A stretch of 64,000 nucleotides of DNA. Origin: Thermococcus sp. MAR1. GTDB lineage: Archaea; Methanobacteriota_B; Thermococci; Thermococcales; Thermococcaceae. Shown in pieces: positions 3,851 to 21,910 of this stretch. The translations under genes were made by a program, and so were the position numbers. The notes beneath the pieces are model-generated. The model was given only the letters and a program-made list of their open reading frames with translations. It did no database searches and had not been told where the DNA came from. How positions within the stretch are numbered: the first letter of the stretch is position 1; each line of letters opens with the position of its first letter. The DNA lies in contig NZ_SNUF01000001.1 of the NCBI RefSeq assembly GCF_012027305.1, forward strand, positions 682,001 through 746,000, read 5' to 3'.

Positions 3851-3966
3851 CCCACAACCCTTATCACTTGAACAATTTCTCCATATAAATTTTTCTCGGA
3901 TAACAAGATAATAAGTGGGAACAAGTAACTTTTCTTTCCCTTTCAAAGGTTGGAGTGGCTATGGAT

Positions 3967-4914: not shown

Positions 4915-4958
4915 CCCATCACCGCCGCCTTTTCATTATCATCATATGGGGCTGTACT

Positions 4959-6080: not shown

Positions 6081-6350
6081 ATGGCGCGCTACTACATTGT
6101 TGTTTATGACGTCAACGAGAAGCGTGTTGCAAAGGTTCACAGGGTTTTGAGGGCTTATCTTCACTGGCGTCAGAGGAGTGTTTTCGAAGGCTGGCTAACC
6201 GAAGGTGAGCTGAAGGAGCTTATGATGAGACTCTCTGAAGTGATTGATGAGGGGGAGGACTCAATACTATTCTATTCACTGGTGAGTGACAGGGCCTTTA
6301 GAACCTTCCATCTGGGAAAACCACCCGAGAGCATAGACAACATCATATGA
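6081..6350 (+). CDS. cas2: Cas2 adaptation protein
   Basis: An 89-residue Cas2 with the N-terminal strand MARYYIVVYDVNEKR, where Asp10 is the conserved acidic residue, and a typical ferredoxin-like length. Cas2 bridges two Cas1 dimers during spacer integration. No Shine-Dalgarno precedes the ATG, and the TATA element AAAGATTTAAAT lies about 25-30 bp upstream, so the mRNA is probably leaderless. It is convergent with cmr6 and separated from cas1 by the whole array, on the opposite strand. This is an unusual split of the adaptation pair. Confidence 0.95.
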   Translation: MARYYIVVYDVNEKRVAKVHRVLRAYLHWRQRSVFEGWLTEGELKELMMRLSEVIDEGEDSILFYSLVSDRAFRTFHLGKPPESIDNII

Positions 6351-6400: not shown

Positions 6401-7492
6401 CTAAAACCTGCCGTAACCGAGGCTCGTCTTCGCCCCGACGCCGTGGTGTTTGAGAGCTTCCCTCAGCAGGGGTTCCGCTTTTTTTACAAGGACTTTGCAA
6501 CCGCCGTGACAGGTGGTTGATTTTCTGAGGCCAAAGAGGAACTTCGTTTTCTCCTTTACAGTCAGGAACTTTATGGGCTTCGGACTGTACCAATCCCCAG
6601 GAGGCTTTTCATCCTGATAGTACGGTCCGTAGTGGGGGTTCATTATGTCCCACTCAAAAATGTCCCAGTCCTCGAACCTCGGGGGCAGAGGAAGGGCGTC
6701 AAGGAAGACGACTTTGCCTTCTTTCCCAACGGTTCCGAATATTTTCCTCAATTCCTTCACTGTGATTTTTATCTCTCCCTTCTCTTTCTCTCCCTTCACC
6801 CTAATCTCCCAGCTCAGAAAGTCCCCCAGTTTCTCCTTGAGAATTTTCTTCAGATCCTCATCATTTATGCTGAGGGCCTCGCTTAGGACTTCCATTGCCC
6901 CGTAGAAATCTCTGTTGAACTCCGTTTTCTCTTTGGGATATTCTTTGAGGTATCTTTTTTCAATGTTCTCGGTTATTCTTCTTAGGGTCGAGAACACCTT
7001 CTGGGAACCAACTGCTTCTACCAGCTTTTCTATTGCATAGCTCCTCGCTATCCCCTTCAGGGCCGAGCCCGGAATGTATGGAACACCATAGTTCCTGAGG
7101 AGCCTTATGCTTGTTTCATAGACGCTCTCGTCCCCGAGACCCACCACCAGCCTTGTCTTCGTGTGCATCTTAAACGTTCTCTCTGGTAGTTTCCTGTATT
7201 CCGTGAGATAGCCCGCGTATTCCTGGACGACTTTTTTTCCAATCTTAATCCTGGGATTATCTTTTTCTTTTCTAAACTGAGATCCGTTTCTATCTTCCCT
7301 CAGCTTCAAAAGGGTTTCAAGGGCAAGGACCTTAGCACGGGTGGGGCTTTCAGTCTCGATTCTTCCATCTCTGCTTACCGGAACGTACTTGTCAAGGTAG
7401 AGGCTCAGGTTCAGACTTTTATCACTGATGCCATCTGCGATTCCATTCCTCAGAATTTCTTCGTTCCTCCTCTTGTGGAAAACAATCCTCAC
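6401..7492 (-). CDS. cmr6: Cmr6, type III-B RAMP subunit
   Basis: Last gene of the cmr operon. The 363-residue protein contains the RAMP signature PGSALKGIARS (near residue 140) and ends with a glycine-rich GAKTSLGYGRF, the loop that binds crRNA in RAMP proteins. Cmr6 caps the head of the Cmr complex near the crRNA 3' end, alongside Cmr1. It overlaps cmr5 by 4 nt. The middle part is rich in Lys/Glu and includes the insertion typical of archaeal Cmr6. Length is close to that of Pyrococcus Cmr6. Confidence 0.92.
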   Translation of the reverse strand: MRIVFHKRRNEEILRNGIADGISDKSLNLSLYLDKYVPVSRDGRIETESPTRAKVLALETLLKLREDRNGSQFRKEKDNPRIKIGKKVVQEYAGYLTEYRKLPERTFKMHTKTRLVVGLGDESVYETSIRLLRNYGVPYIPGSALKGIARSYAIEKLVEAVGSQKVFSTLRRITENIEKRYLKEYPKEKTEFNRDFYGAMEVLSEALSINDEDLKKILKEKLGDFLSWEIRVKGEKEKGEIKITVKELRKIFGTVGKEGKVVFLDALPLPPRFEDWDIFEWDIMNPHYGPYYQDEKPPGDWYSPKPIKFLTVKEKTKFLFGLRKSTTCHGGCKVLVKKAEPLLREALKHHGVGAKTSLGYGRF

Positions 7493-7884
7493 GATTTCTC
7501 CCCCTTCTTGCCTATCATTGCATCGGCGAAGCGCTTGAGCCAGTTGAGGAGTGAAAGCGTTTCAAGGGTCGCCATATAAATCTCTATATCATTGGCGCAT
7601 TTAATGAGCCATTCAAGGACGTTGTTCACCCTGTTTTCGTTGCAATCTTCCTTAAAGTACCCCATACTCTTCAACCACTCGTTTATTTGGTTGAAGAGCT
7701 CCTCGTATGCATCTGCCCCCTTGGATTTAGATTTATAGTAAGCCAGCGTCTGTATCAGCCCGTTGGTTAGAATCATCGCTGGAGCACGCTTAACGTAGCT
7801 TTTGTAGTCATCCTCAAAGCCCTTCCCTTTTATTCCGCTTACTTTATCGTAGGCAAATTTTGCCCTTTCCTGCTCAGTGCTCAT
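7489..7884 (-). CDS. cmr5: Cmr5, small helical subunit of the Cmr complex
   Basis: A 131-residue, mainly alpha-helical protein beginning MSTEQERAKFAYDKV. A conserved Cmr5 segment is seen: APAMILTNGLIQTLAYYKSK around residues 34-53. Cmr5 forms the minor filament that stacks beside Cmr4 and separates target RNA segments. The gene overlaps cmr4 by 11 nt and cmr6 by 4 nt, which indicates strict translational coupling. Confidence 0.9.
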   Translation of the reverse strand: MSTEQERAKFAYDKVSGIKGKGFEDDYKSYVKRAPAMILTNGLIQTLAYYKSKSKGADAYEELFNQINEWLKSMGYFKEDCNENRVNNVLEWLIKCANDIEIYMATLETLSLLNWLKRFADAMIGKKGEKS

Positions 7885-8761
7885 CCCCTGTCACCCACGA
7901 AATTTTTACGAAGCCCTTGCCAACGGTCTCGTCTCCGCCGAGCTGGATAAAACCACTGAGCTTACTCTTCAAATTCTCAGCAAGCTTGCTGGCGTTTAAG
8001 GCATTTTTCCCGTTATCGATTTTTTTCCTTGGGTCGTTTACCAGTATTATTGAGTAAAGGAGGGTATCCGCAGGCAGGAACTCCTCGTACCACAGAGCTC
8101 CCTCGTCCACCGTGCCCGTGTTGGGGTTTATTCTTATTCTTGTGACTATCTCAGTCCCGGTCTTGACGAACATTGTGAACAGGTCGTCTGAAACTATGAC
8201 GAGCCTCTTCGTCAGGTCGCTCCGTGGTATAAGCTTCTTGATATTATCAAGAACTGCCTTGGGAATTTGCTTTTCCTCCACATTGAGTGAAACGTCTTCG
8301 AGAATGACTTTCTCACTCCCGTGGATTACGTTGAAGTGGTCTTTCTCTAGGACGATTGCCTTTCCATCTTCCACACGTAGGTCGATCTGGGACTTTTCTA
8401 TTAACCCAGCTCGCTCTAGATCCTCGGCAAACCTCTTAAGAACAAAGGGGCTCGTGACGTAGGCGAAGAGCCCCTTGACGCTCCTGACCGGGAAGAGAAG
8501 AACTTTGGCGTCTCCAACGCTTATCGCTCCGCTGTGCTCGTGGGCTCTGTCCGTTGGCGGCCCGAATATCGAGATCTTAACCGGGTCATTGTCCTCCCCG
8601 GGGAAGGCACTCCTCAGAGCACCTTTAAGGCTCTGGCCCCACACAACAGGAAAGCCGGTGTGCCTCTCCCTCTGTATCGGCAGGTCTATAACGCTTATCT
8701 CGGAACCGCTTCCCGGATGGATGGGAGTTACGGAATAGAGGCCAAGAACCAGAAACTTCAT
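7874..8761 (-). CDS. cmr4: Cmr4, backbone RAMP and target-RNA nuclease
   Basis: A 295-residue Cas7-type RAMP that forms the repeated backbone of the Cmr complex and cuts target RNA every 6 nt. His15 (TPIHPGSG) and Asp26 (ISVIDLPIQRE) fall where the catalytic-site residues of Pyrococcus Cmr4 are described. WGQSLKGALRS around residue 41 is the RAMP motif, and IQLGGDETVGKG near the C-terminus is the glycine-rich loop. The retained Asp26 argues for active RNA cleavage. It overlaps csx3 by 4 nt and cmr5 by 11 nt. Confidence 0.95.
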   Translation of the reverse strand: MKFLVLGLYSVTPIHPGSGSEISVIDLPIQRERHTGFPVVWGQSLKGALRSAFPGEDNDPVKISIFGPPTDRAHEHSGAISVGDAKVLLFPVRSVKGLFAYVTSPFVLKRFAEDLERAGLIEKSQIDLRVEDGKAIVLEKDHFNVIHGSEKVILEDVSLNVEEKQIPKAVLDNIKKLIPRSDLTKRLVIVSDDLFTMFVKTGTEIVTRIRINPNTGTVDEGALWYEEFLPADTLLYSIILVNDPRKKIDNGKNALNASKLAENLKSKLSGFIQLGGDETVGKGFVKISWVTGDEH

Positions 8762-9060
8762 ACCAACACCTCCTCGAGGTTTATCTCAAAGACATCGCCG
8801 GGAGCCACTCCCGGCACATGGGATTGAACTACCACGGCGCCGAGCCTCGGGTCGTAGGTTGCCACCCAGGCCGTTGGGTGGTAATAATGGGCGAGAAAAC
8901 CATACAGCCACACTGGCCCTCTGCCACTCAAAACGACACCCTTTTTGGGATTTACCTCCGGTGGTTTCAGGGACTTCAGGATTGAGGGCTCTATGGGGCT
9001 GGTTATCTCAAAATGGACCAAGACAAAGTCGTCCAGCTCTCTGGTCTTGAAACTTAGCAT
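8758..9060 (-). CDS. csx3: Csx3, cyclic tetra-adenylate ring nuclease (Crn3)
   Basis: A 100-residue protein that closely resembles Archaeoglobus AF1864/Csx3 as I recall it. The shared segments are VLVHFEITSPI, KGVVLSGRGPVWLYGFLAH and VATYDPRLGAVVVQSH. Csx3 degrades the second messenger cA4 by forming filaments that sandwich it, and so switches off type III signalling. The conserved GRGP and the His near residue 57 (FLAH) are kept. The gene is embedded in the cmr operon, overlapping cmr4 by 4 nt and the CARF gene by 7 nt, so it is made in step with the complex that would produce cA4. Confidence 0.9.
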   Translation of the reverse strand: MLSFKTRELDDFVLVHFEITSPIEPSILKSLKPPEVNPKKGVVLSGRGPVWLYGFLAHYYHPTAWVATYDPRLGAVVVQSHVPGVAPGDVFEINLEEVLV

Positions 9061-10049
9061 TCGAAGTTCCCCTCCTCAATGATGTCTCTGAATTCTTTCT
9101 TCCACTTGGAGATGGAATCTAGCTTCTCTCTGTAGTCCTCAAGCTTTCCAAAGAGCTCCATATATTTCTCAATGAACGGGCCTTTCTTGAAGCCCTCTTC
9201 CCCTTCGGGGATTATGTAACCTGCCTCTATGAGCTTGGGGAGAAACTTCTCGGTGTAACCCCTCTTCTCGAGAATGTCCTCGACTTCTTTCTTGTTTATG
9301 ACGCTTTTCCCTTGGAACTCTATGGTGAGCTCCCTCAGGATTGTGCCGATTCCCAGGTTCAGGGGCGGAAACTGGTACCATTTCTCAAGAATAATATAGG
9401 AGTGGGCATTTATTTTGTTGGCATCTTTTGGGAGGGAGCTAAGCCACTCGGGTTCGAGGCGGTTGGAGTTCTGGAAAACGTAGTAGTACCTGCTCGGAAC
9501 GGCGGTGTAGGCACCGGATATCATGAGGGCGAGGTTTATCTGATTACTGCCTCCTATGAGGTTTGTCCATACCTCCTTTCTCCTGATGGCATAGTACAGT
9601 GCCCCGGCCTTCACGAAGACGTCGTCAAAGTTCTGATAATCCACCTTAACAAGATAGAAGTATTTTGGTGGTTTTAACCCCTCAGCGTTATTTTTCTCAA
9701 GTGTATCGTTGAGCTTACCGATAAGCTTGCAGAGATAACTAACGATTGGTTCGTGAACGGGCTCGGAGTTTTTTGGTTTAAGATTAAACCACCCCGAAGA
9801 ATAGTTTAGTCTTAACTTCCCTTCTATTGCCTCCTTGGAATCAAAGACTATCAGAGCCTCCGGTTGTCCTTTTGCCTTCTCATAGCTTCCCTTCTTCTCG
9901 GATTCACCTGAAAACTTGAAAAAGTCACTGGCTCCCCTATGTCCAAGCCTCGCCGCGGCTTGGAGTATGTATACGCACGTCAAGGGCATTGTAACAGCCC
10001 CCGGGCTTGTTCCAAGACCCGACACGTGATAGACTCCCACTTTAATCAC
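9054..10049 (-). CDS. CARF-domain protein with C-terminal winged-helix-like region
   Basis: The chosen start is GTG 10049. It overlaps the cmr3 stop and gives MIKVGVYHVS directly at the first Rossmann strand; an ATG at 10085 would add 12 residues. The protein has 331 residues. The N-terminal 200 look like a CARF ligand-binding domain: GLGTSPGAVT after strand 1, and WTNLIGGSNQINLALMIS at 161-178, matching the GG-x-N/K-x-M/I-x-LAL pattern of CARF proteins. Residues about 235-285 resemble a winged helix, followed by a charged helical tail. No nuclease motif (HEPN RxxxxH, PIN, PD-ExK) is visible. It could be a cyclic-oligoadenylate-sensing regulator or an adaptor. It is co-transcribed with the Cmr subunits and csx3. 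Confidence 0.7.
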   Translation of the reverse strand: MIKVGVYHVSGLGTSPGAVTMPLTCVYILQAAARLGHRGASDFFKFSGESEKKGSYEKAKGQPEALIVFDSKEAIEGKLRLNYSSGWFNLKPKNSEPVHEPIVSYLCKLIGKLNDTLEKNNAEGLKPPKYFYLVKVDYQNFDDVFVKAGALYYAIRRKEVWTNLIGGSNQINLALMISGAYTAVPSRYYYVFQNSNRLEPEWLSSLPKDANKINAHSYIILEKWYQFPPLNLGIGTILRELTIEFQGKSVINKKEVEDILEKRGYTEKFLPKLIEAGYIIPEGEEGFKKGPFIEKYMELFGKLEDYREKLDSISKWKKEFRDIIEEGNFEC

Positions 10050-11109
10050 CTTCAACTTTTCCTGTGAAGACCAGCCCAAAACCAAGCTTTTGAAGTTCTC
10101 CGAGTTTCATTACGGGGTTTAAGTTCTCAGTCCCCTCCCGGATTTTCAGGTAGTAAACGCTTCCGGGGGGAACCGCAAAGCGGGGTTTTTTCGGCCTCCT
10201 TCTCACAAAATCCCACCCCTCAACCCGGATAGGCTTCCCCAGAAAGGTCTTCACAATCTCGGCCTTTACGTCCAGCTCTTTCAGTGCAACACTCACGTCC
10301 CACGTGTAAACTGTCCCGGTTTCATTGTTTTCACTCAGTATGAGGGGGGTTGCCACGTAAAGCTTCACAATGCCGTTATCCTTATCCCCAAGTTCCTTTT
10401 TGAGCTCCTCGTTTAGTTTAGACCATGGCTTATGGTTCTCCACTTTTACGAATGAAAAGTGACCCTCACCTCCCAGGCGGGTTGCGACGGCCTTTGCAAG
10501 ATCGTTCTCTATGTCCCTCAAACCGTTACTCTTGCCGTCATCAATCCAGACCGATATCTTCACATCTTTTACGGGCCGTAGGTTTCTTGTCCTGTACAGC
10601 AATCCCATCTTTGCCGTTCTTGAGGTGTCGAGACCCACTCCTATCCTGTCTTCCAGCAGGAACACATCTGGAGGGTTTACCACGTAGTCTTCATCAAACC
10701 TGCCACGGAGGTATTCTTTCATCCCCTCGAGTCCCAAGAATCCCGAGGCCCTTGAAAAGTGGAGGCTTTCTTCAAGGGTTACGGGCCGATAATTTTTTAT
10801 TGTTGCTTCCAGTTTAAGAATTCCTAGGCCGTTTTCACCTCTCGCCACATCCAGGGGGAGGTGGAACAGCTCTTCTCCCCTATAGAAAAAGCTACCTTTA
10901 ACGGTGAATCCCGGCTCCTCCTCCCCCACTTTTATCAGATTCCTGTACTTCAGGCTATCCAGGTTATATAGAAGAGACCGAATTGCCCCGGTTACTGTCG
11001 TTTGAGGGATATATGTTACACTTCTCCCGAGATGGCTGTCGCCAGCTTCAAAGGGTCTGCCGTCCCTGAAAAAGAGGACATCATAAGGGTCGAATAGAAT
11101 CCTCATCAT
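10042..11109 (-). CDS. cmr3: Cmr3, Cas5-like RAMP subunit
   Basis: A 355-residue protein starting MMRILFDPYDVLFFRDGRPF, the typical Cmr3 opening. It has GRSVTYIPQTTVTGAIRSLL as the helix that follows strand 1, and GELQKLGFGLVF at the C-terminus as the glycine-rich loop. Cmr3 binds the crRNA 5' tag and pairs with Cmr2 in the foot of the complex. It directly abuts cmr2 (0 nt gap) and overlaps the following CARF gene by 8 nt. No odd features; length is slightly above the Pyrococcus homologue as I recall. Confidence 0.93.
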   Translation of the reverse strand: MMRILFDPYDVLFFRDGRPFEAGDSHLGRSVTYIPQTTVTGAIRSLLYNLDSLKYRNLIKVGEEEPGFTVKGSFFYRGEELFHLPLDVARGENGLGILKLEATIKNYRPVTLEESLHFSRASGFLGLEGMKEYLRGRFDEDYVVNPPDVFLLEDRIGVGLDTSRTAKMGLLYRTRNLRPVKDVKISVWIDDGKSNGLRDIENDLAKAVATRLGGEGHFSFVKVENHKPWSKLNEELKKELGDKDNGIVKLYVATPLILSENNETGTVYTWDVSVALKELDVKAEIVKTFLGKPIRVEGWDFVRRRPKKPRFAVPPGSVYYLKIREGTENLNPVMKLGELQKLGFGLVFTGKVEGD

Positions 11110-13722
11110 TCACACCCCCATCTTTCTCAGGATTCTCAGGAGCATTGCCGCGTTCTTGAGCTGTTCCCGCATAATCTTACCATTGAAATTTTGTTGCCAG
11201 AACGACACAGAACCTCTCAAACCGTAGTATACATCCCCATACATGGGGTCAATGGCGAGCTTTTCTAGGACCTTTTCATTATTGCCTACTCTGATGTGAC
11301 TGGCTGTCCAGAGGAAAGCTCTAACCAGTTCCTCGACGTTGGTTTTTACATGCCTCTTGAACTCATAGGTTATGAGGCTTTCAATGGCATCAGGGTCGTC
11401 TGGCCAGTGCTCTATATCCTCGAATATTTCGTAGATAAGCCGGGTGCTCATCTCGTCCCCGAGTGTCCCGAGCAGTTTCCAGAGTTCGCTATCATCAGAA
11501 AAGATGTCCCAATTTACCACGACGCTGTAAAAGTTTCCACTGTGTGTTAGGTAGCCAATAGCAATTGCGTTTCTTCCCGATTCCTTGGCAAGGTGTTCGA
11601 GTTCGCCCACCAACTCGTAGGCATGGTAAAGGGGTTCCTTGTAGTGTACAACCAGTATGCCCGCACTCATGCTCCTCGTACTGCCCTGAAGGTGGTGAAA
11701 GCCGTCCCAGTTCGTCCTGAACTTTTCCTGAAGTTCATGAGCACATTTGATAACTGTGTTCGTCGGCAGGAACGCCAGAACGTCATCACCACCGGCTAGT
11801 ATTGTTTCACCCTTGTGTCTTTCCACCCCATTTGGAACTGTCTCGACGGCGAACCTGGAGAGCGAACGCGTTATTGCCACATGAATAGCAGGGGTTACGG
11901 GCTTGGTTACGTCCGGAACATTGGGGATATCTTCTGTATTCGGGTATTCACTAAGTTTCTTCATGCCCTTTGTCCCGCTTATCAGCTTGCCCATGTTGTC
12001 TCCGTCCATCTTTAGTATCGCGTAGTACTTCGGGGGCTCCCCGTATTCCTTTTTTATAGCCTCGACCTCATTGCGAAGTTTATCAAGGGCGATACCTTTC
12101 GTCTGAAAGATATTTTCAAGTTCATCCACGCTGATCCCGTAAACCTTTGCCAGACTTTCAACGGAGGAAACGTTTTCAATGTAAAAGACCTCCGAGTTCC
12201 TGCCAAGCGCTTTAAAAAGTCTCTTAAGGTTCTCAAAGAGATTAGGATTTGACTCGTTGCTCGTCAAACGTTTCCATAGTTGCCATAGTCTCTCGTTCTT
12301 GCGTATGGCAACTTCGCTTACCGACTCAACACGCTTTCTTGTTGTGTTTCCCGCGTTGAGGTATTTTCTGGGATAAACTCTCTTGACGAGACACAGCGGG
12401 CAAAGCATCTCCCCGTCTTTTATATCATAAATTTTTCTGTTCCTGAGCTTTCTTGTGTGGTTGTTCCAGGCTTTTCTCAGCTCCCTGTAACCGGGATTTC
12501 TGGCGTACTGTCCAATGGCAGGAATCTCGCCACAGACGGTGCACTTGAATCCGTCCGGTACCTCTCTCCTCTCCCACTTGTTGGACTTAAACTCCGTCTT
12601 CTGGTCAAGGAGTGCGAAGAGATAGGGGTAGAGAACGTTCTCATCTTCCCTGCCAAGTTTGGAGAAGACTTCTCGAAGGTGCCTATCGACCACTTCAAGG
12701 TTTCCTTCGTAAGGCCAAAGGGAGACTGTTATGTAGAAGTAATCTTTCAAAATTTCCTTTGAAATTTCTTTTTCCTTTTTTACATCGCTATTGCTCAGCT
12801 GAAGGCCATTCTTTAGGAAATTATCGATATCATAGATTTGCCAGGCTTCTTCGAGGAGCCACTCCAAATAACCGGCGAGCTTCTCCTTTATCCTTTTCTC
12901 CAGTGTTTTCTCAAAGTCCTCGGAGGAAGAATTTGCATCAACTCCGATTACGGCCAAAACTTTGTTCGGCATGTTTGGGATGTCGTATTTTTTGGGGTCA
13001 ATACTTTTGAGGTCATTTTCAAAGAAGGGTTGCCCGCGAAGATGGGGAAATATTATTCCTCCTGGCCACGTTTCTCTGAGTATAACCTCTATGGCAAAAT
13101 ACGTCAGCCTTGAAAGCAGATGACTGCCTGCCCAGAAGTCCAGCTCCTTTCTCGCGTTGCCTATGAAACCCTGGACAGGGGATATCTTGAAGCGGAGCAG
13201 GTAGGGCTTCTTTCCACTCCCTTTAATGGCCTTTACCGTGGCGTAGAACTCGGTCCTCGTCAGCCAGTCGTGGTCCGGAAATGAGGGATCCGCGGGGAAG
13301 TGAACGAGCTCCTCAGCAATCTTCTTGGCAATGTCGGGGTTAAGATTAAGTTCCTCAAGTGCCTTCTCGTATCCTTCTTTCAGCTTTTGGGGAAGCTCGT
13401 TCCAGAGCCTTGCAAACTCCCCGGGGCTTTCCGCCCCTTCAAGCTTGGAGAAGACCTCTTCCTCGGCCTTTCGTATGGCCTCGATGAACTCCTTCCTCTT
13501 CCCATCATCTGCCCCGCTCCAGAACTCGCTGAGCTTTTCGAGGGGTTTTTCCTCGGCGCTTATCGGGTGCTTGAGGACAGTCTGAGCGGGGATTCCATGC
13601 TTATTGTTTACCTTGTGAATCGAGAGCTCCCACCAGTCGTCGGGGACCTCATTGGAGAGTATCCTCGAAGGCGTGACCTCAGAAAGAACATTGGCGAGGG
13701 TTTTGAAAAACTCGTTGCTCAT
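11110..13722 (-). CDS. cmr2: Cmr2 / Cas10, cyclase subunit without a clear HD motif
   Basis: This 870-residue protein is the large subunit of type III-B. Two palm domains are seen: the first around 176-340 (LLRFKISPVQGFIGNARK), the second around 565-700 with KMDGDNMGKL (Asp573) and AGGDDVLAFLP (GGDD 644-647). The latter is the cyclic-oligoadenylate synthase site. Zinc-finger cysteines are at 394/397 and 441/444. The first 170 residues lack the usual HDPP-type nuclease motif; only PDHDWLTRTE (150-158) recalls the end of that domain. DNA cleavage is therefore doubtful while signalling should be intact. The ATG at 13722 has GAGGAGGT upstream; it overlaps the cmr1 end by 44 nt. Confidence 0.94.
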   Translation of the reverse strand: MSNEFFKTLANVLSEVTPSRILSNEVPDDWWELSIHKVNNKHGIPAQTVLKHPISAEEKPLEKLSEFWSGADDGKRKEFIEAIRKAEEEVFSKLEGAESPGEFARLWNELPQKLKEGYEKALEELNLNPDIAKKIAEELVHFPADPSFPDHDWLTRTEFYATVKAIKGSGKKPYLLRFKISPVQGFIGNARKELDFWAGSHLLSRLTYFAIEVILRETWPGGIIFPHLRGQPFFENDLKSIDPKKYDIPNMPNKVLAVIGVDANSSSEDFEKTLEKRIKEKLAGYLEWLLEEAWQIYDIDNFLKNGLQLSNSDVKKEKEISKEILKDYFYITVSLWPYEGNLEVVDRHLREVFSKLGREDENVLYPYLFALLDQKTEFKSNKWERREVPDGFKCTVCGEIPAIGQYARNPGYRELRKAWNNHTRKLRNRKIYDIKDGEMLCPLCLVKRVYPRKYLNAGNTTRKRVESVSEVAIRKNERLWQLWKRLTSNESNPNLFENLKRLFKALGRNSEVFYIENVSSVESLAKVYGISVDELENIFQTKGIALDKLRNEVEAIKKEYGEPPKYYAILKMDGDNMGKLISGTKGMKKLSEYPNTEDIPNVPDVTKPVTPAIHVAITRSLSRFAVETVPNGVERHKGETILAGGDDVLAFLPTNTVIKCAHELQEKFRTNWDGFHHLQGSTRSMSAGILVVHYKEPLYHAYELVGELEHLAKESGRNAIAIGYLTHSGNFYSVVVNWDIFSDDSELWKLLGTLGDEMSTRLIYEIFEDIEHWPDDPDAIESLITYEFKRHVKTNVEELVRAFLWTASHIRVGNNEKVLEKLAIDPMYGDVYYGLRGSVSFWQQNFNGKIMREQLKNAAMLLRILRKMGV

Positions 13723-14761
13723 GGTCAGACCTCCTCAGGGGGTAGATTCTTTTGGCCCTTATCTTACGAAGGAACCCATCTATGTGATCCCAATTTACTC
13801 TAACCTTTGGGCTAAAGGGATCTGTTTTGAAAACAGAGAACCTGAGATGGTACTTGCCATCAAGTTTCACAACTCCAACTTTCATTGGAGACGCTCTCCT
13901 TGGTCTCGGAGTTCCAAAAACCCAATCCTTGTACCCCCTCTTTGAAGTATGGCATTCTTCATCCTTAAAGCAGGCCTCAAAGGCATCGAGGAGTCTTTTG
14001 GAATTAGATCCTTCTCCATTTCCATTGTTACATACAGGATTTGATGAATAGTAAACTCCTCCAAGTTCCGAGCATTCCCCCCATAGCCACACGCTGAAAC
14101 ATTCTTTTGACATCGTGGAATACTGAAGACACTTTCCAGATTTCTCAGGATATTCTATTTCCCGTTTCTTAGAATATCCCATTTCCCTCAAAATGGCATT
14201 AACTTTAGAAACAAGAATATCTGGAAATTCCCTGTATTCAGATTCTTTTGAGGGGAGGGATATATCCATGATTGAATGTTGTCTTATTTTCACATTTGTT
14301 ATCCAGACAGACCCCGCACCCCTGTTGCTCCGGAACCCTAAACCCCCAAAATAGCTCATCGCTACAAGTGAATACGATGCAAGTTCCAATGCATTTTCGT
14401 CATGAGATTTTAGCTTTATTGTAAGCTTCGTTCCTTCGGGTATGGCTGGAGATGAAATTCTTTTCCGACTCCGTTTGTTCCATACCATTGGTAAGGGTCT
14501 GTTCTTGGATTCATAGTCACCAATATCCACCTCAACAACAACCCTGCTCCTCCTTGTTTCCTTCCCGGCGCAACCGAAGACCCTGCACTCGGCCCTTCTT
14601 AGCCCATCAATATCGCTCCCGAAGTAGCTTCCTGCTAAAGCCCTGAACCACCAGCGCATGACGCCTTTAACGCTCGCCGAGCGGAACTCGGCTTTCCTCT
14701 GATCGGCACTGCGCATGAAGAGAGGTGTTAAGGTTTCAAGCTCGAAGGTAGCCTCGTACAT
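13679..14761 (-). CDS. cmr1: Cmr1, head RAMP subunit
   Basis: First gene of the operon. From ATG 14761 (GGGGTGAT, 3 nt spacing) it has 360 residues. The start MYEATFELETLTPLFM and the motif ASVKGVMRWWFRALAG near residue 30-45 are Cmr1 hallmarks, and GGLGFRSNRGAGSVWI is the glycine-rich loop. Cmr1 sits at the head with Cmr6. The C-terminal coding end runs 44 nt into cmr2. The last 25 residues are basic and of low recognisability, so a late frameshift is possible but not demonstrable. A TATA element (TTTTTTATATTT) on the minus strand at about 14831-14844 provides the operon promoter. Confidence 0.9.
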   Translation of the reverse strand: MYEATFELETLTPLFMRSADQRKAEFRSASVKGVMRWWFRALAGSYFGSDIDGLRRAECRVFGCAGKETRRSRVVVEVDIGDYESKNRPLPMVWNKRSRKRISSPAIPEGTKLTIKLKSHDENALELASYSLVAMSYFGGLGFRSNRGAGSVWITNVKIRQHSIMDISLPSKESEYREFPDILVSKVNAILREMGYSKKREIEYPEKSGKCLQYSTMSKECFSVWLWGECSELGGVYYSSNPVCNNGNGEGSNSKRLLDAFEACFKDEECHTSKRGYKDWVFGTPRPRRASPMKVGVVKLDGKYHLRFSVFKTDPFSPKVRVNWDHIDGFLRKIRAKRIYPLRRSDHEQRVFQNPRQCSF

Positions 14762-14965
14762 AACATCACCCCAGAAGACAGACAGGTGCACGAGCGTGAC
14801 TTTGTGAACATGGTAGTCATGGCAACTCCGAAATATAAAAAACTTTTGGCGAATAGGAGAAGGGTTTATATAACTGCACGGAGGCCACAGAATATTGGTT
14901 CAGTTAAACGTCTTAATACCTAACAACCACTAAAGCTGTGTACTCGATGGTTGGGGGAGATTTTT
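14762..14965. promoter_or_regulatory. Divergent promoter region between cmr operon and membrane/CARF-PIN operon
   Basis: The 204-bp gap carries a minus-strand TATA (TTTTATATTT, about 14831-14844) for cmr1. A plus-strand TATA (GTTTATATAA, 14864-14873) faces the membrane-protein gene. A second plus-strand A/T element, CTTAATACC near 14910, could also be used. The two core promoters are about 25-30 bp apart back to back, so any bound regulator would influence both operons. Confidence 0.65.
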
Positions 14966-16225
14966 ATGACAAAGTGGGTTGGGAAAGCCCTTGGCTTCAT
15001 CGTTTTGACTGTCACGAGTCTCACGTTCCTTGAGCTGTTTGACCTCGACAACGGTAACTTCGCCGTGTTCATAGCCTACGTTTTACTCATCTTCGCCTGG
15101 ATGGACTACTTCAAACTCATTATATACGTCTTCCTTGCCTTTGGGGCCATAGCCGGCTTTTTCCTCGGGAATCTTGATGGTCTCATCTACGGCTTTCCAA
15201 CCGGGCTGGCGTACCTGCTCTTCGCCTACCTCCTCTCGACCAACAGGGAGAGACTGGCAACCCTGGTCTTCGTCCTCTCAATCCCCCTGGCGATAATAAC
15301 CGCCAAGTTCTTCCCGATTTCGAGCACCGTCATCTGGGGGCTCATCGGCCTGATGGCGGGAGCAATAGAGAACGCCGTCATCGAGGAGATGGCGGAGGGA
15401 GACGTCTTCATAATAGCCCTCTACTTCATGGCATTGGGGCCTTTTGCCTTCATACCCCTCGCCCTCCAGGCCGTGACGGGCATAACACTCTTCGAGAAGC
15501 AGTACTATGACGGGTCTGTTTATCCGGTCGGTCCGGCTATGTTCGTTGTTTCAGTGCCCCTCTTCGCCCTTCTGAACCACCTGGCCTCGACCAACTCCCT
15601 ACCCGAGTGGCTCTTCTACGGCTACTACCACGGTGTAACGAACCCGAAGCTGGCCGTTATAGGGGCCTTCCTCGGGACGTTTGGTATTCCATTCCTGCTC
15701 TCCTTGGAGCAGGGCACTGGAACGACGATGGACTTTGAGGTAACTGTCGCAGGGGCAACGATAGGCGCAGTTGCGGGTCTTGTAGCCGGCCTCGCAACAC
15801 TCGGTGCACTCGGAGTGCTCGGCTTTTACGTCGATAAGCTGGGCTACCACAATCTCGCCGGGGTTCTGGCTCTTGTGGCTCTCTTAGGTTCTTTCGTGGT
15901 GGGGGGAGTTGTGTGGGTGGGGTTCTCACAGCTCCACTACGAGGGGAGGAGCTCGATAAACCCATACCTGTGGCTGTGGGGAATAGAAATAGCATCGATT
16001 CTCCTGTCTCTCTACCTCCTCAGGTACGCCTGGGGACTCTTCGAGGAGGCAAGGGTCCTAGCATTAGTGACCGGCCTCATTTTTACCGTCCTGTTTTATC
16101 TCTCTATTGAAAAATCTGAAGGGGACCACACCCTCTTGGACAGGCTCTGGCAGGCCACCCTCTACTTTTCGGCCTTCCTCGCCGGTCTCTGGGCCGGCTT
16201 TGGAATGCTCTGGATACTCCAGTGA
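14966..16225 (+). CDS. Polytopic membrane protein linked to CARF-PIN gene
   Basis: From ATG 14966 (GGGGAG at 6 nt) the protein has 419 residues and about 11-12 hydrophobic segments spread evenly from residue 8 to the C-terminus, with almost no soluble domain. I do not recognise a transporter family. Notable patterns are several glycine-rich helices (ATIGAVAGLVAGLATLGALGVLGF, residues about 266-290, and similar stretches) and a conserved-looking GTGTTMDFE loop between helices. It ends 9 bp before the CARF-PIN gene, which has its own GAGGTGG site, so the two are an operon divergent from cmr. It may be a membrane partner of the cOA-signalled nuclease, but no direct evidence shows this. Confidence 0.75.
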   Translation: MTKWVGKALGFIVLTVTSLTFLELFDLDNGNFAVFIAYVLLIFAWMDYFKLIIYVFLAFGAIAGFFLGNLDGLIYGFPTGLAYLLFAYLLSTNRERLATLVFVLSIPLAIITAKFFPISSTVIWGLIGLMAGAIENAVIEEMAEGDVFIIALYFMALGPFAFIPLALQAVTGITLFEKQYYDGSVYPVGPAMFVVSVPLFALLNHLASTNSLPEWLFYGYYHGVTNPKLAVIGAFLGTFGIPFLLSLEQGTGTTMDFEVTVAGATIGAVAGLVAGLATLGALGVLGFYVDKLGYHNLAGVLALVALLGSFVVGGVVWVGFSQLHYEGRSSINPYLWLWGIEIASILLSLYLLRYAWGLFEEARVLALVTGLIFTVLFYLSIEKSEGDHTLLDRLWQATLYFSAFLAGLWAGFGMLWILQ

Positions 16226-16234
16226 GGTGGTTAT

Positions 16235-17707
16235 ATGGGCCGGGAAAAGAAGGCGTACGTCACGACCGTGGGAACCTCCCCAGAGGCCGTCTTCAACCCC
16301 ATCTGGTACCTGGCAGAGGCCTACTCATGGATTCCGGATGAGGTTTACCTCCTCTGGAACGAGGAGGTAATTGAAGAGCTCTCAAGGGTGGTGGAGCTCG
16401 TTGAAAGGCTTTCCAGGGCTTACGGGAAGGAGATAAGAGTTCACAGTGAAGTTTCCCTGAAGTTCGATGAATCGGATCCTGTATCCTTCAGGGAGCTGGC
16501 CTTGAAGCTCGTGAAGGGGTTAAAGGAAAAGGGCTACGAGGTGATAGTGGACATAACGCCCGGGAGGAAGTTCATGAGCGCACTCCTGCTCGGGGCCTCT
16601 CTCGCGGGAGGGGCTGACGAGGTAACTTACCTCCACCTTGAGGACTTCAGGAGGTACCTGGGGAAACTCCTCTTTGAGGTGCCCATGGTAAAGCAGAGGC
16701 TCTTCAGGAAGAAGGAACTGACCGGGAAGGAGGGAAAGCTTGAAGCGAGGAGGAGGGAGGGACAATCCCCCAGCAGGTTTCAGGTTACCAGGGAAGACCT
16801 CATGGCCCTCCTGGATTCCCTTTACCTTGATGATGTCCGGAGGTTTCAGCTCAAGGTTGGGAACCAGCCGATAGGGAGCGTCCACCTAGGGGGGCGTGCC
16901 AGGCTCAGGATAAACGACTACATCGAGCTTGACAAGGAGCTTCACGGCGGGCACACTATGATGAAGGAGGCGATAATAGCAGGAATGAACACCTTCCGAA
17001 ACTGGGGGGAGCTGAAAAATACAATTGAAACGCTCCTCCGTTCAGGAAGGCCGTTGTACATCGGATTCGACACGAACGCGCTGATGTTCCGGGTTCCCTC
17101 CAAGATGCTCAACGAGGAAGCGTTCTACGAGAGGGGCAACCTGAGGTTCGACTTCGTTTACTCCGACGAGGTGGCCCTTGAGATAGGCAGGCAGGTGAAC
17201 AGGAAACTGCCCTACTCACAAGGCCCCCGTGAGTACTCCAACCAGCCGACGCCGAAGGCGAGGCTCGCCAGCCTTGCCCTTGTGGAGCTTGAAAGGCTCC
17301 GCTCGCTCGGTGTCGAGAAGGCCAACAGCAAAAGAAACGCACAGGGAGACACGAAGATAGCCCTCGATTACAAATCCTTCGCAGAGGAGAAACACGCCAA
17401 CGTCCTCGTTGTTACGTTCGATGAGAGGGCTTACGCGGAGATGGAGGCTGTAAGCCACTCCGGCCTCCTGCCCTTCAGGCTTGAATGGGACTTCTCCTTT
17501 GGAATGACCTTCGAGTGCACCTGGGAGGAGCTGAGGGATACAATCTACACCCTGGCGGTAACACTAGGCGAGCTGAACTTGCACTACCTGGAGTTGCACT
17601 ACGAACTCCATGGAATATGGCGCGGGAAGAATATGGAAGACTGGAAAAACGAAAGGCTCAAGCTGAGCGGTTTCGAGTACGGTAGGGTTCTCGAAGTCCT
17701 GAGATGA
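16235..17707 (+). CDS. CARF-PIN protein, putative cyclic-oligoadenylate-activated RNase
   Basis: This 490-residue protein opens with a CARF fold: YVTTVGTSPEAVFNPIWYL after strand 1, then VIVDITPGRKFMSALLLGASLAGG at 103-126. A linker follows, including a basic patch at 155-175. The C-terminal part from about 272 looks like a PIN nuclease: FDTNA (Asp279), DEVALEIG (Glu312/Glu316), GDTKIALDY (Asp372, Asp378) and VVTFDERAY (Asp396), which match the spacing of PIN acidic residues. Binding of a cyclic oligoadenylate made by Cmr2 would be expected to activate RNA cutting. CARF-PIN fusions are among those listed in surveys of type III accessory genes; catalytic state here is inferred. Confidence 0.8.
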   Translation: MGREKKAYVTTVGTSPEAVFNPIWYLAEAYSWIPDEVYLLWNEEVIEELSRVVELVERLSRAYGKEIRVHSEVSLKFDESDPVSFRELALKLVKGLKEKGYEVIVDITPGRKFMSALLLGASLAGGADEVTYLHLEDFRRYLGKLLFEVPMVKQRLFRKKELTGKEGKLEARRREGQSPSRFQVTREDLMALLDSLYLDDVRRFQLKVGNQPIGSVHLGGRARLRINDYIELDKELHGGHTMMKEAIIAGMNTFRNWGELKNTIETLLRSGRPLYIGFDTNALMFRVPSKMLNEEAFYERGNLRFDFVYSDEVALEIGRQVNRKLPYSQGPREYSNQPTPKARLASLALVELERLRSLGVEKANSKRNAQGDTKIALDYKSFAEEKHANVLVVTFDERAYAEMEAVSHSGLLPFRLEWDFSFGMTFECTWEELRDTIYTLAVTLGELNLHYLELHYELHGIWRGKNMEDWKNERLKLSGFEYGRVLEVLR

Positions 17708-18012
17708 TTTCCCTAGCTTTTTCAATTGTTGTCTCACTCTTACTGTGACAATCCCGTTAACGGCACTCGTGCATTTTGATGCGCGTTGCGGCTGGTGAAC
17801 ATGATTCTTCCGGTGCTTCTCGTTGCCCCGACCTGCTTGCTTCGCATTGTTTTACGATGCGTACTATTCTCAGCCATTCCCTATGCAACAAGAAGAGTTA
17901 GCAACGCGAAATCAACCTTCGATGCAAGAAAACGCACTATTATGTTCAACTATACGCCATGAATGAACTGAAAAGAGCATCATCTGCCTGCACTTAAGGC
18001 CGGTCCTAGGCA
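17708..18012. other. Gene-poor segment before the solitary CRISPR repeat
   Basis: No gene is convincingly coded. A 53-codon frame at 17801-17962 has GGTGA just before its ATG, but its product (basic, no recognisable family) is too weak to call. Short words such as GATGCG, CGCATTG and GCAACG recur, which may be chance or the trace of a decayed element. No terminal inverted repeats or transposase fragments were recognised. Confidence 0.4.
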
Positions 18013-18043
18013 CTGATTACACCTGCAAGGCATGTTTGCAAAC
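18013..18043 (-). repeat. Solitary CRISPR repeat, same family as the main array
   Basis: Twenty-seven contiguous bases (18017-18043) are identical to the array repeat. The outer four (18013-18016, CTGA on the plus strand) differ from the consensus. In the minus-strand orientation the repeat has the intact GTTTGCAAAC start and lacks the final GAAC, like the terminal repeat at 4959-4989. No second repeat lies within the next several hundred bases on either side. Its right flank resembles the array leader, so this is a leader plus one repeat with no spacer. Confidence 0.93.
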
Positions 18044-18120
18044 TGTCCAGATTTTTGCTTCTTTTGCCATTTAAGCGTTTGATAGTTGATGTTTATAAAA
18101 TTTTCGTTCTTTTGCGTCCT
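18044..18120 (-). promoter_or_regulatory. Leader-like sequence with TATA next to the solitary repeat
   Basis: A minus-strand TTTTATA lies at 18094-18100, 50 bp from the repeat, matching the 47-bp distance at the main array. Both are followed by TTTCGTTCT-like sequence on the plus strand. The arrangement predicts that the solitary repeat is still transcribed and could still be an integration site for new spacers. Confidence 0.65.
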
Positions 18121-18650
18121 TTCCCGTGGCTGGAGAAAGAGACAGGCAAAGGCCCAGTTCAAACTAACAATGGTGGTATTATTAATGATTCAATGCAAAT
18201 CACCTTCCTTTTGGGATTTGGAGGATTTCTCCGTTAAGAGTCAGACGCTGGAGCATTCAGATGTGACAAAACTCCTGAAGGGACGGCTTGATGCAGATCT
18301 GGCTTTGAGACCGTAATTTTATGGGTCCATCAACTCAGAAAGTGGCTGAAAAGCTCTCATTTGACGGGGCTCTGAAAAGCGTCCGATTTTATCTCTCTTG
18401 TCTTTTTCAGCTTTTTTAAGGGACTTGTACCGTATAAAAGGGACGTCCTGCTTTTTTGCATACTCGTGCTTGAACGGGCACAACCTAAAAATTCTTATTG
18501 AAAAACCGGGTTAAAAGCCAGAATTTTTTCAAAAACCTGATCCGGTATATTCATTATCTTGTAAAAGACGTGTAAACGCACAATCAGAAAATTTCAAACC
18601 GTCAAAACCCTTCAAAAAATTTGAAAATAAAAACGTCTGATTTGACCGGT
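18121..18650. other. AT-rich gene-free stretch between solo repeat leader and TM-CARF gene
   Basis: No supported coding frame. It contains T-rich runs, a plus-strand TATA-like GTATAAAAGG near 18432, and AAAAGCGTCCGATTT at 18375-18389, which mirrors 5765-5779 beside the main array at nearly the same distance from the repeat. Base composition is clearly more AT-rich than the neighbouring genes. Poly-T tracts around 18400-18420 could act as terminators. Confidence 0.45.
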
Positions 18651-19937
18651 TTAGTCCAAAGGAACCCTGTTATCCAGGTTTTTCTCGTACCGCCTCTCGA
18701 AGTACTCCCTGAGCTCCCTCGCGAGGTCCTCAAGGTCGAAGATGTCCATATCGACCGCCATGAGGAGGTCCTCAGGCTCGGCGTCGTAGATGTTCTGCTT
18801 TATGTACTCCGCGTGAGTGTCTCCCTTTATCGCGTGGAGCATCATCGCTATGCTCACCGGAGCGGTACCCCCAGTCAGGTGGAAGGTAACGTTATCACTT
18901 TCCCTCTCGATGAGCTCCCTTATCTCGGATTTCGCTATGGCCTGGAAAATACTCTTAACGTCGTTGGGGTCGCCAACATTGACGAACTTTACCGTCACGG
19001 TTCGCTCCCAGTTTCCAATCGTTTCGGCCTCCTCACAGGGCCACTCAACCCTGAAGGAAACCCCGAGGCATTCGCTCGCCTTTTTGAAGAACTGCTGGAG
19101 GATGTCCTTGACGTCACTCTCTACTCTGAAAGCGTTGCATTCTTTCCCTTTACATTTCGTGTGAACCGGGGTAACCACTAGGTAGAGCCTCTCAAGAGAG
19201 TCACAGGAGCTATGGTATGCCATGGAAACGTAGAGGGGGAACAGGGAGACCGGTACCTTCCTTCCGTTTACCTCAATCTCCCTGTTACGTTTCATGTCAT
19301 AGCAGTCGGCCTTGCTGAGGGCCTTCCTCCAGACCGGGCTGGGACGACTGAGGGCGTAAACAAGGTACCTTGCCTTCCTTGGCAGGTTATCCTCGCCCTC
19401 TCCTTTCTCCGGGGGTTTTTGTGCAGGATAAGCGAAGGCTGTCGCAAAGATTATCGAGAGGAAGTATAAGATGGTTCCCCCAATGAACCAGGGATTTCCC
19501 GCTTCCAGTGCATCGGGCAACCATGCGGTTAGAATTATTGCAAAGAGAACAAATATGAACAGGCCGTAGAGCGAGAGGGCAAGTTCGCCTATGAAAAACC
19601 TGGAAAGGAACAGCCTGACGAAGTTTCCGAGGGAGTTCCTTCCGCTCTCTTTCAGACTCCAGCCCGAAAGAAGCGCGAGGACAAAGGAGGTTATCATCAC
19701 ACCAAACGTAACCACGGCGAAGACCGAATAGGCGGTCGGCGAGAAGAGGGCCGGTTCTATGTGACTCACAACCCACTCCTCCATCCTGAGGAAGAACTCT
19801 GAAACTCCCCCGGGGAGCCAGTTGAACGCTCTCTGTGCCTCCATCAGGGAGGCGTTTTCAAGGAACATCACAACGGACGGAACCAGGAGAAGAACCGAGG
19901 CGAAGAGCTTCCTTCCTGCATTCCCCCTATTCCCCAT
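18651..19937 (-). CDS. Four-helix membrane protein with C-terminal CARF-like domain
   Basis: This 428-residue protein starts at an ATG preceded by CGGTGGT. Four hydrophobic segments are visible: about 11-27, 68-92, 113-139 and 150-171. Residues about 185-428 are soluble and contain NVTFHLTGGTAPVSIAMMLHA (349-369). That matches the CARF/SAVED-like TGGT-x(3)-S/N-x-A-x-M-L nucleotide-binding signature. Cysteines at 212, 245, 262, 267, 290 and 301 are unusual for the family. Its overall plan, membrane helices joined to a CARF domain, is that of Cam1-type effectors but with four helices rather than one. It is convergent with the CARF-PIN operon, with the solitary CRISPR repeat in between. Activity is inferred. 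Confidence 0.72.
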   Translation of the reverse strand: MGNRGNAGRKLFASVLLLVPSVVMFLENASLMEAQRAFNWLPGGVSEFFLRMEEWVVSHIEPALFSPTAYSVFAVVTFGVMITSFVLALLSGWSLKESGRNSLGNFVRLFLSRFFIGELALSLYGLFIFVLFAIILTAWLPDALEAGNPWFIGGTILYFLSIIFATAFAYPAQKPPEKGEGEDNLPRKARYLVYALSRPSPVWRKALSKADCYDMKRNREIEVNGRKVPVSLFPLYVSMAYHSSCDSLERLYLVVTPVHTKCKGKECNAFRVESDVKDILQQFFKKASECLGVSFRVEWPCEEAETIGNWERTVTVKFVNVGDPNDVKSIFQAIAKSEIRELIERESDNVTFHLTGGTAPVSIAMMLHAIKGDTHAEYIKQNIYDAEPEDLLMAVDMDIFDLEDLARELREYFERRYEKNLDNRVPLD

Positions 19938-19990
19938 GGGACCACCGAAAAAAATATGCCTAAAAACTTAAAACCCTTCCGCTTACCCAT

Positions 19991-20464
19991 TTATCTCGCG
20001 AGAGACCTTATCTCCTCCATCATTTCCTCAAAGCGCTCGTCGCTCATTCCAATGAGCTTCTTTGCTTGCCTCAAGTTTATCGTCCTCGCGAGGGTCTTCC
20101 TCATCATGGGGTTCTCAAGGGGCGAAAATCCATACTTCACGAGTATTTTAAGTGATTCTGGATATGCCTTCAGGAGTTTGGCCACGTTGGTTTCCTCCGT
20201 TATCTCCTCAAGCTTATCGTCGCACTCCTTAGTTTCTATGCTAAGTCCCCTTGATTCTTCGGTTTTAGTAACCCTCAGCACGAAGAAGCCAGAGGCCTCG
20301 CCGACCTCTATCCTATAGCCGGCATCCTCAAGTTTTCCCAGCATGTCAACGAAAGGTCTGTCACCGATTACCTCAAGAGTTTCCCCTACTTCGAGCTTGG
20401 AGAGGGCTTCCATTATCATAACAGCCGGTTGAGGGGGCTGCAATCCACGAACATCGAGTATCAT
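19991..20464 (-). CDS. DUF2249 (TusA-like) + DUF1858 protein
   Basis: A 157-residue two-domain protein. Residues 1-70 form a TusA/SirA-like fold of the DUF2249 type (ILDVRGLQPPQPAVMIMEAL, then GETLEVIGDRPF), lacking the TusA active cysteine. Residues about 90-150 match DUF1858 (TNVAKLLKAYPESLKILVKYGFSPLENPMMRKTLARTINLRQA), a domain found with hybrid-cluster and hemerythrin-like redox proteins. It is divergent from a DUF438/hemerythrin-like/PAS protein and shares a palindromic operator with it, so the two probably act in one redox or metal-stress response. The biochemical role is unknown. Confidence 0.75.
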   Translation of the reverse strand: MILDVRGLQPPQPAVMIMEALSKLEVGETLEVIGDRPFVDMLGKLEDAGYRIEVGEASGFFVLRVTKTEESRGLSIETKECDDKLEEITEETNVAKLLKAYPESLKILVKYGFSPLENPMMRKTLARTINLRQAKKLIGMSDERFEEMMEEIRSLAR

Positions 20465-20506
20465 TGTCCTTCACCGTTCAATTTTATGACGTGCGGCATA
20501 TAAACT

Positions 20507-20530
20507 TTGTTGGGCAGATATGCCCAGCAA
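20507..20530. promoter_or_regulatory. Palindromic operator between two divergent TATA boxes
   Basis: A 10-bp inverted repeat with a 4-bp centre (TTGTTGGGCA, GATA, TGCCCAGCAA) matches at 9 of 10 pairs. It sits exactly between a minus-strand TATA (GTTTATATGC, about 20496-20506) and a plus-strand TATA (GCTTATAAAC, 20532-20541). A dimeric repressor bound here would cover both core promoters and co-control the DUF2249/DUF1858 and DUF438 genes. Confidence 0.7.
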
Positions 20531-20575
20531 TGCTTATAAACGTTTTATATGACACTTGTCATGAAGGTGGTAAAG

Positions 20576-21910
20576 ATGACTGAGTTGCTGAAGAATCGCG
20601 AGTACAAGAAGGAGCAGCTGAAGAAGCTTCTCCTCAGGATTCATGAAGGGGAGGACGTTAACGAACTCAAGGAGGAGTTTAGGGTAGTGTTGAGCGGTAT
20701 TTCCCCCCTTGAAATTCCAATCATAGAGCAGGAGCTTGTAAAGGAGGGGGTCTCTGCTAAAGACATTGCGAAGATGTGTGATTTACACGTCGAGCTGTTC
20801 AGAGAAGCGGTTGCCGGAACGGAGGAGCTTGAGGAAAAAGATTTACCTGAGGGGCACCCGCTCAAGACGCTCTACCTTGAGAACAAGGAGATTATGAAAG
20901 ATTCTGAGATGCTCAACCTCTACGTGAGGACTTTGGCGACTACCAAAGATGAGCGCATGAAAGCTGAAATCCTCGGTGTCTTGGAGGAGATAGTGGGCAA
21001 CCTCAGAAAGGTCGGCTTCACCCACTACAACAGGGAGGAGATGCTCACCTTCCCCTACATTGAGCGGAGAGGTCTTACGGCAATAGCCACCGTTCTGTGG
21101 ACGAAGCACGACGAAATCCGGTTCATGATAAAGAGGCTCGCCGAACTCCTGAGGAAAAGGAATGAGATGCCCTGGGAAGAGTTCGTTGAGCGCTTTAAGG
21201 AGAAAGCCGGAGAGGCTTCGTTCGCGCTGAGCGACATGGTTTTCAGGGAGAACAACATCTACTATCCCACTCTTAAAGCCCTCCTCTCAGACGGAGAATG
21301 GAAGGCAATAAGGATGCAGGAAAATGAGTTCGGTTACTACAAGGTTAATCCGCCGGAGTGGGATCCCGGAGTTGAGCCCCTCCACCCTTGGGAGATTGAT
21401 CCAGAGCTGAGCGTTGAAGAACTGCTGAACCTTCCAAAGGAAGTTCAGCAGGCCCTGAAAGGCCGTCCTCTGGAGTTTGACAAAAGCCAGCTGAAGCGCG
21501 AGGGCGACATCGACCTCGGAACCGGCTACGTGAACCTTGAGGAACTCAAGGCGATATTCGAGGCCCTTCCAGTAGATATAACCTTTATAGACAGGGACGA
21601 CAGGGTTCGCTTCTTCTCTCCGGGAGAGAGGATATTCGCTAGAACTCCCTCGGTCCTCGGAAGACCGGTTCAGCTCTGCCACCCGCCGAAGAGCGTCCAC
21701 ATCGTCAACAAGATACTCAGGGCATTCAAGGAGGGCAGGAAGAGCGAAGCCACCTTCTGGCTCAGGCTCGGGCCGAAGTATGTTTACATCAAGTATGTGC
21801 CGCTCTTTGACAGCGAGGGCAACTATCTGGGAACCCTCGAAATGACAATGGACATCGAGCCCTACAGGAAGATTGAGGGCGAGAAGAGACTGCTGGACTG
21901 GAGGGACTGA
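20576..21910 (+). CDS. DUF438 / hemerythrin-like / PAS sensor protein
   Basis: The start ATG 20576 follows AAGGTGGTAAAG and lies downstream of the start site predicted by the TATA at 20532-20541. Upstream ATGs at 20549 and 20561 would be at or before that site. The protein has 444 residues. The N-terminal region is DUF438, the middle is hemerythrin-like (HYNREEMLTFPYIERRG and LWTKHDEIRFM give His/Glu iron-ligand spacing), and a C-terminal PAS domain spans about 320-435 with a conserved LCHPPKSV segment. Proteins of this build are thought to sense oxygen, NO or redox state with a di-iron or ligand site. It likely starts an operon with the cupin and M24 genes. Confidence 0.82.
   Translation: MTELLKNREYKKEQLKKLLLRIHEGEDVNELKEEFRVVLSGISPLEIPIIEQELVKEGVSAKDIAKMCDLHVELFREAVAGTEELEEKDLPEGHPLKTLYLENKEIMKDSEMLNLYVRTLATTKDERMKAEILGVLEEIVGNLRKVGFTHYNREEMLTFPYIERRGLTAIATVLWTKHDEIRFMIKRLAELLRKRNEMPWEEFVERFKEKAGEASFALSDMVFRENNIYYPTLKALLSDGEWKAIRMQENEFGYYKVNPPEWDPGVEPLHPWEIDPELSVEELLNLPKEVQQALKGRPLEFDKSQLKREGDIDLGTGYVNLEELKAIFEALPVDITFIDRDDRVRFFSPGERIFARTPSVLGRPVQLCHPPKSVHIVNKILRAFKEGRKSEATFWLRLGPKYVYIKYVPLFDSEGNYLGTLEMTMDIEPYRKIEGEKRLLDWRD

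Follow-up and report, generated by a model that had tools for sequence, protein, structure and literature searches.

An orphan polytopic membrane protein associated with two CARF proteins in type III CRISPR effector islands of Thermococcales

In type III CRISPR systems, Cas10 makes cyclic oligoadenylate (cOA) on binding target RNA, CARF domains bind cOA, PIN domains cut RNA and Crn3 degrades the signal. To our knowledge, the known type III membrane effectors carry their own nucleotide sensor. Cam1 acts alone as a cA4-gated membrane effector. In type III-B systems, a soluble CARF ribonuclease has been found beside a separate multi-helix membrane protein: the gene for Cam3 always directly follows that for the soluble Cami1 (PMC11229360). 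Signalling by cOA can also drive proteolysis, as in CalpL/CalpT/CalpS and SAVED-CHAT (PMC11229360), and the 2025 CRISPR classification counts PIN ribonucleases as cOA effectors (PMC12669027). Here we describe a locus of Thermococcus sp. MAR1, lying in a 64,000-nucleotide stretch of contig NZ_SNUF01000001.1 (positions 682,001 to 746,000; hereafter the window, from the first nucleotide of which coordinates are counted). At this locus, a 419-amino acid (aa) polytopic membrane protein (MP) is encoded together with a CARF-PIN protein and with a transmembrane (TM) CARF protein, TM-CARF. We conclude that type III effector islands have a new membrane component in MP, an orphan protein.

The MP gene (14966-16225, plus strand) runs from an ATG at 14966 to a stop codon ending at 16225, with an alternative TTG start at 14951. 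The gene for the 490-aa CARF-PIN protein (16235-17707, ATG at 16235) has the same orientation and begins after a gap of 9 bp. The pair is divergent from a complete cmr operon of type III-B, the first gene of which, cmr1, lies at 13679-14791 on the minus strand (TIGR01894, E=1.3e-27). This arrangement had been proposed in an original prediction made from the sequence of the window, and it was confirmed, as was the identity of the CARF-PIN protein. However, that two-gene account lacked the adjoining gene to the right of CARF-PIN, which encodes the 428-aa TM-CARF (18651-19937, minus strand; PADLOC CARF8--CARF_TM, E=1.3e-126), and MP and CARF-PIN are part of a three-gene module. TM-CARF has four N-terminal hydrophobic segments (helices) and a C-terminal CARF domain, which fits the CARF8--CARF_TM class and places it with Cam1 and the other TM-CARF effectors; in contrast to Cam1, it travels with an additional, sensorless membrane protein. 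The locus recalls Cami1/Cam3, from which it differs in that its membrane protein is all-membrane, has 12-14 helices, is encoded upstream of the soluble effector and pairs also with TM-CARF.

The CARF-PIN protein matches PADLOC CARF_m1--CARF_PIN end to end (E=4.6e-194) and, judged by its sequence, is an ordinary member of this known family, no different from the proteins of the library, whereas its membrane neighbour MP is absent from that library. The CARF domain spans residues ~1-130 and the PIN domain is C-terminal. Of the acidic PIN residues that had been described as intact, D279, E316, D372 and D396 form a tetrad that is invariant across 17 homologues, two of them distant (~30% identity), whereas E312 and D378 are not conserved. 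In an AlphaFold model obtained from an alignment of two sequences (window and region L069 of a relative), the predicted local distance difference test score (pLDDT) was 40 overall and <50 in the PIN part; the CARF region 1-130, with alternating strands and helices and a block pLDDT of 52-84, was the sole confidently modelled part. We infer that this protein would constitute a cOA-activated RNase arm.

The association of MP with CARF proteins was examined in 94 Thermococcales genomes, 15 of which have an intact MP and 34 a type III Cas10 match (G000 is the label of the window's own genome, other G numbers designate relatives and L numbers their regions). Type III Cas10 was present in all 15 intact-MP genomes (Fisher P=2e-8), intact CARF-PIN in 13 of the 15 (P=3e-12) and TM-CARF in 14 of the 15 (P=3e-12), and both associations were retained within the 34 type III genomes (P=1e-5 for MP/CARF-PIN and P=6e-6 for MP/TM-CARF), although these P values are too small, since the genomes are related. 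Nevertheless, gene orders differ enough among genomes to indicate a repeated association of MP with CARF genes. A CARF effector was encoded in every intact-MP genome (15/15), and a CARF effector gene or remnant was located within 20 kb of MP for 14 of the 15 intact copies, so MP did not emerge as a common transporter found without CARF genes. The coupling of an RNase to a membrane partner, as envisaged in the original prediction, is therefore upheld as a tie between MP and CARF-PIN, but not as an exclusive pair, as TM-CARF is tied equally to MP, adjoins it in several genomes and tracks its divergence better, as shown below.

Gene maps were compared over 20-kb regions. MP followed in tandem by CARF-PIN, ~4-9 bp apart, was found in five genomes (G000, G044, G039, G017 and G022), with cas6 directly upstream in three of them. 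By contrast, MP stands beside TM-CARF, and not CARF-PIN, in six genomes: in G067, G072 and G023, MP comes in tandem after TM-CARF, and the two genes are convergent in three Pyrococcus-type genomes, with CARF-PIN ~5 kb off. Evolutionary distances corrected for the host gene ABCE1/RLI in 12 genomes, a small sample, gave a partial correlation of r=0.37 (P=0.02) for MP/TM-CARF and of 0.09 (not significant) for MP/CARF-PIN, and the latter correlation disappeared after controlling for TM-CARF together with the host gene. G044 and G023 are sister genomes, with a distance of 0.004 in the host gene; their MPs are very far apart, as are their TM-CARFs, whereas their CARF-PINs are nearly alike. The adjacency of MP to either CARF gene, together with a divergence that follows TM-CARF better, points to a three-gene module with no exclusive MP/CARF-PIN pair. 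TM-CARF is likely a second partner of MP and, on these comparisons of sequence and gene order, appears likelier than CARF-PIN to be its functional partner.

Besides the relatedness of the genomes and the small size of the divergence sample, two cases weigh against this preference for TM-CARF. G006 has an MP, an unlinked CARF-PIN 800 kb off and no TM-CARF, and G017 and G039 have MP and CARF-PIN in common and differ in TM-CARF, which favours a CARF-PIN pairing in these two genomes. The latter would be expected if MP and CARF-PIN formed a direct complex, in which MP would tether or restrain the RNase at the membrane or, alternatively, would be opened by CARF-PIN acting as its cOA sensor. The close tandem order in five genomes, the co-occurrence in 13 of 15 and the precedent of Cam3 beside the soluble Cami1 (PMC11229360) are also consistent with such a complex, which we nevertheless consider unlikely. 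CARF-PIN occurs without MP in G016 and G080, whereas G018 and G032 have kept MP despite a CARF-PIN remnant or the loss of most of the PIN domain, and the correlation of distances is lost under the controls described above. G018 retains just a CARF remnant of CARF-PIN; in G032 (L055, 8049-9071), CARF-PIN has undergone an in-frame loss of ~residues 262-424, with the CARF domain and the C-terminal end remaining, and the truncated gene adjoins two MP genes and TM-CARF. In G016 (contig C13, 48790-60720), CARF-PIN is intact, MP is absent and TM-CARF is broken by a stop codon, which suggests that the membrane arm decayed recently.

MP is almost wholly transmembrane and has no soluble sensor domain. 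The 12 helices initially counted were recovered with a crude window, but family-averaged hydropathy and a low-confidence AlphaFold model gave ~13-14. Of the charged residues, just D47 and D146 are invariant in 17 of 17 MP homologues, down to 24% identity. D47 is located where one helix ends and D146, directly after an invariant G145, where another begins, with four predicted helices separating them; the charge bias of the loops (positive N-terminus and loop 90-98) predicts both residues to be on the cytoplasmic side. A third conserved block, the near-invariant YPVGP (186-190), follows D146.

The absence of MP from known families, as originally proposed, was borne out: the 17 homologues had no significant match in Pfam, NCBIfam (transporter and channel families included) or PADLOC, and the MP profile had no match in the PDB. 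MP was confined to Thermococcales among 115 genomes of the phylum. A search of genome contigs for homologues beyond this order yielded just another Thermococcus, none were found in viral contigs and plasmids, and the MP profile run against 61 same-genus genomes, with E up to 10, detected nothing beyond true members. Given the lack of both a family match and weaker relatives, MP is not a diverged common transporter visible to the profile. Two partial MP homologues are not near CARF genes. G004 has a C-terminal fragment-like MP match and no Cas10 or CARF-PIN match. A half-length paralogue of 284 aa in G041 (L067, 8158-9012) retains a D, an exact GSGD and YPMGP; it lies by itself, flanked by a resolvase and a small coiled-coil-like gene, and a SNF2/NOV_C helicase is 1-3 kb away.

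The two invariant aspartates suggest a comparison with the GxGD membrane aspartyl proteases, namely the A24 type IV prepilin peptidases (FlaK/PibD/PilD) and the A22 family (presenilin/SPP). These enzymes likewise have two invariant Asp residues at cytoplasmic helix ends, the second of them within a Gly-Asp where a helix begins. In the FlaK-like A24 protein of the host itself the order is D20 ... ASGD ... YPLYP, and MP reads D47 ... AEGD ... YPVGP, with extra helices at both ends. Several results nonetheless speak against a protease. The motif of the window MP is AEGD, in which the first Gly is absent, and only Gly-Asp is invariant in the family. Comparisons by hhalign of MP with A24 peptidases and presenilin/SPP homologues from archaea, carried out for the whole protein and the core in local and global modes, were no better than reversed controls (local scores of 13.6-17.8, and 15-18 for the controls). 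No Pfam A24 or SPP match was obtained for any of the 17 MP homologues. The AlphaFold model of MP (pLDDT 43, from an alignment of the window and L069 sequences) was of too low a confidence to bear on the fold. A search of plasmids for further A24 sequences returned one weak match. Since profile comparison remained at the level of the controls, the motif is AEGD and the model is poor, MP is not assigned to A24 or A22. That MP may work like a GxGD membrane aspartyl protease is our leading guess from its conserved residues, to be taken as a lead only and a doubtful one. It is similarly possible, but rather improbable, that MP is a CRISPR-dedicated sensorless diaspartyl membrane protease switched on by the neighbouring TM-CARF or CARF-PIN, such that cOA would trigger intramembrane proteolysis. 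In the open-access literature searched, which did not include two key surveys, no paper linking CARF proteins or type III CRISPR to a prepilin-type or intramembrane aspartyl protease was found.

We tentatively propose, at somewhat less than an even chance, that a type III effector island of Thermococcales has MP as its membrane component alongside two cOA receptors, and that MP is gated via TM-CARF, with a protease as the first guess for its activity. Cas10/Cmr2 would make cOA on meeting target RNA, and, as in the known families, the CARF domains of CARF-PIN and TM-CARF would bind it. CARF-PIN would be the soluble RNase arm, with RNA cut by its PIN domain, a role that also follows from known families. 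From our own comparisons, TM-CARF would sense cOA and relay the signal to MP in the same membrane, and MP would then act. As a diaspartyl GxGD-type protease using D47 and D146 on the cytoplasmic side, MP could cleave a membrane substrate, leading to dormancy or death.

Alternatively, MP could form a pore or an ion channel that TM-CARF or CARF-PIN opens, depolarising the cell like Cam1, Csx23 or CorA, with D47 and D146 lining the conduction path. Known type III membrane effectors work in this way (PMC11229360, PMC10808066), TM-CARF falls within the broad TM+CARF class, and an almost wholly transmembrane protein would suit such a role. However, the known effectors of this kind are small and sense the signal themselves, whereas MP lacks a sensor domain and has 12-14 helices; no channel family matches MP, and the invariant Asp pair at the membrane face, one of them in Gly-Asp, fits an active site at least equally well. 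We therefore regard a pore as an improbable explanation. A protective role, in which MP would be an immunity or reset factor that limits the damage caused by the CARF effectors or restores the cell, would explain its linkage to either of two potentially toxic effectors; it is very unlikely, because CARF-PIN persists without MP in G016 and G080 and the Crn3/Csx3 ring nuclease of the locus already switches the signal off. That defence islands carry MP merely as an unrelated transporter or a passenger, as the partial homologues of G041, beside a resolvase and a SNF2/NOV_C helicase, and of G004, without Cas10 or CARF-PIN, might indicate, is extremely improbable: all 15 intact copies come from genomes that have both a type III system and a CARF effector, mostly with a CARF gene or remnant nearby, and no library gave a transporter match.

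The cmr operon from which MP diverges continues, on the minus strand, with cas10/cmr2 (11110-13722; TIGR02577, E=3.2e-81), whose product has a GGDD cyclase motif (LAGGDDVL, read from the sequence) and is the presumed source of cOA at the locus. This gene is followed by cmr3 (10042-11109; TIGR01888, E=1.8e-55), a third CARF protein gene of the CARF3--CARF/Csx1-like type (9054-10085; PADLOC, E=1.2e-121), the gene for the Crn3/Csx3 ring nuclease (8758-9060; TIGR02579, E=4.2e-36), cmr4 (7874-8761), cmr5 (7489-7884) and cmr6 (6401-7492). The Csx1-like gene adjoins Crn3/Csx3, and several relatives carry a CARF-HEPN Csx1 at the equivalent place instead. Past the operon lie cas2 (6081-6350, plus strand), a CRISPR array of seven repeats (4957-5444), cas1 (3967-4914, minus strand) and cas6 (3134-3946, minus strand). 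A lone perfect CRISPR repeat, TTACACCTGCAAGGCATGTTTGCAAAC, is located between CARF-PIN and TM-CARF (18017-18043, plus strand); with up to 2 mismatches allowed, it is the sole genomic copy besides the array, and no such isolated repeat was found in the 20-kb regions of the relatives. An Rfam scan of 14000-20700 gave no match.

In the Pyrococcus-type regions L061 (6782-11457), L062 and L063, a conserved 1313-aa protein is encoded between CARF-PIN and MP/TM-CARF. It combines a Cas4-like PD-(D/E)XK region with an SF1 helicase and adjoins a 231-aa alanyl-tRNA editing-like protein, and the two proteins possibly form a separate defence pair. In seven examined genomes (regions L050, L053, L060, L055, L054, L065 and L049), the type III effector island is close to ABCE1/RLI, with effector contents that differ greatly between genomes. 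The neighbourhood of this host gene is thus an apparent recurrent site for defence islands.

MP, although sensorless, has been retained alongside a CARF receptor, or two of them, in Thermococcus and Pyrococcus-type genomes, so a large membrane protein may be under the control of a sensor that resides in its partner. MP may be a new CRISPR effector. In CalpL and SAVED-CHAT, a single chain holds both the sensor and a soluble protease (Lon or CHAT), whereas a membrane aspartyl protease would be another enzyme class with a separate sensor. If catalysis did depend on the Asp pair of MP, CRISPR signalling would extend to a class of enzymes new to it, the prepilin-peptidase or presenilin-like proteases.
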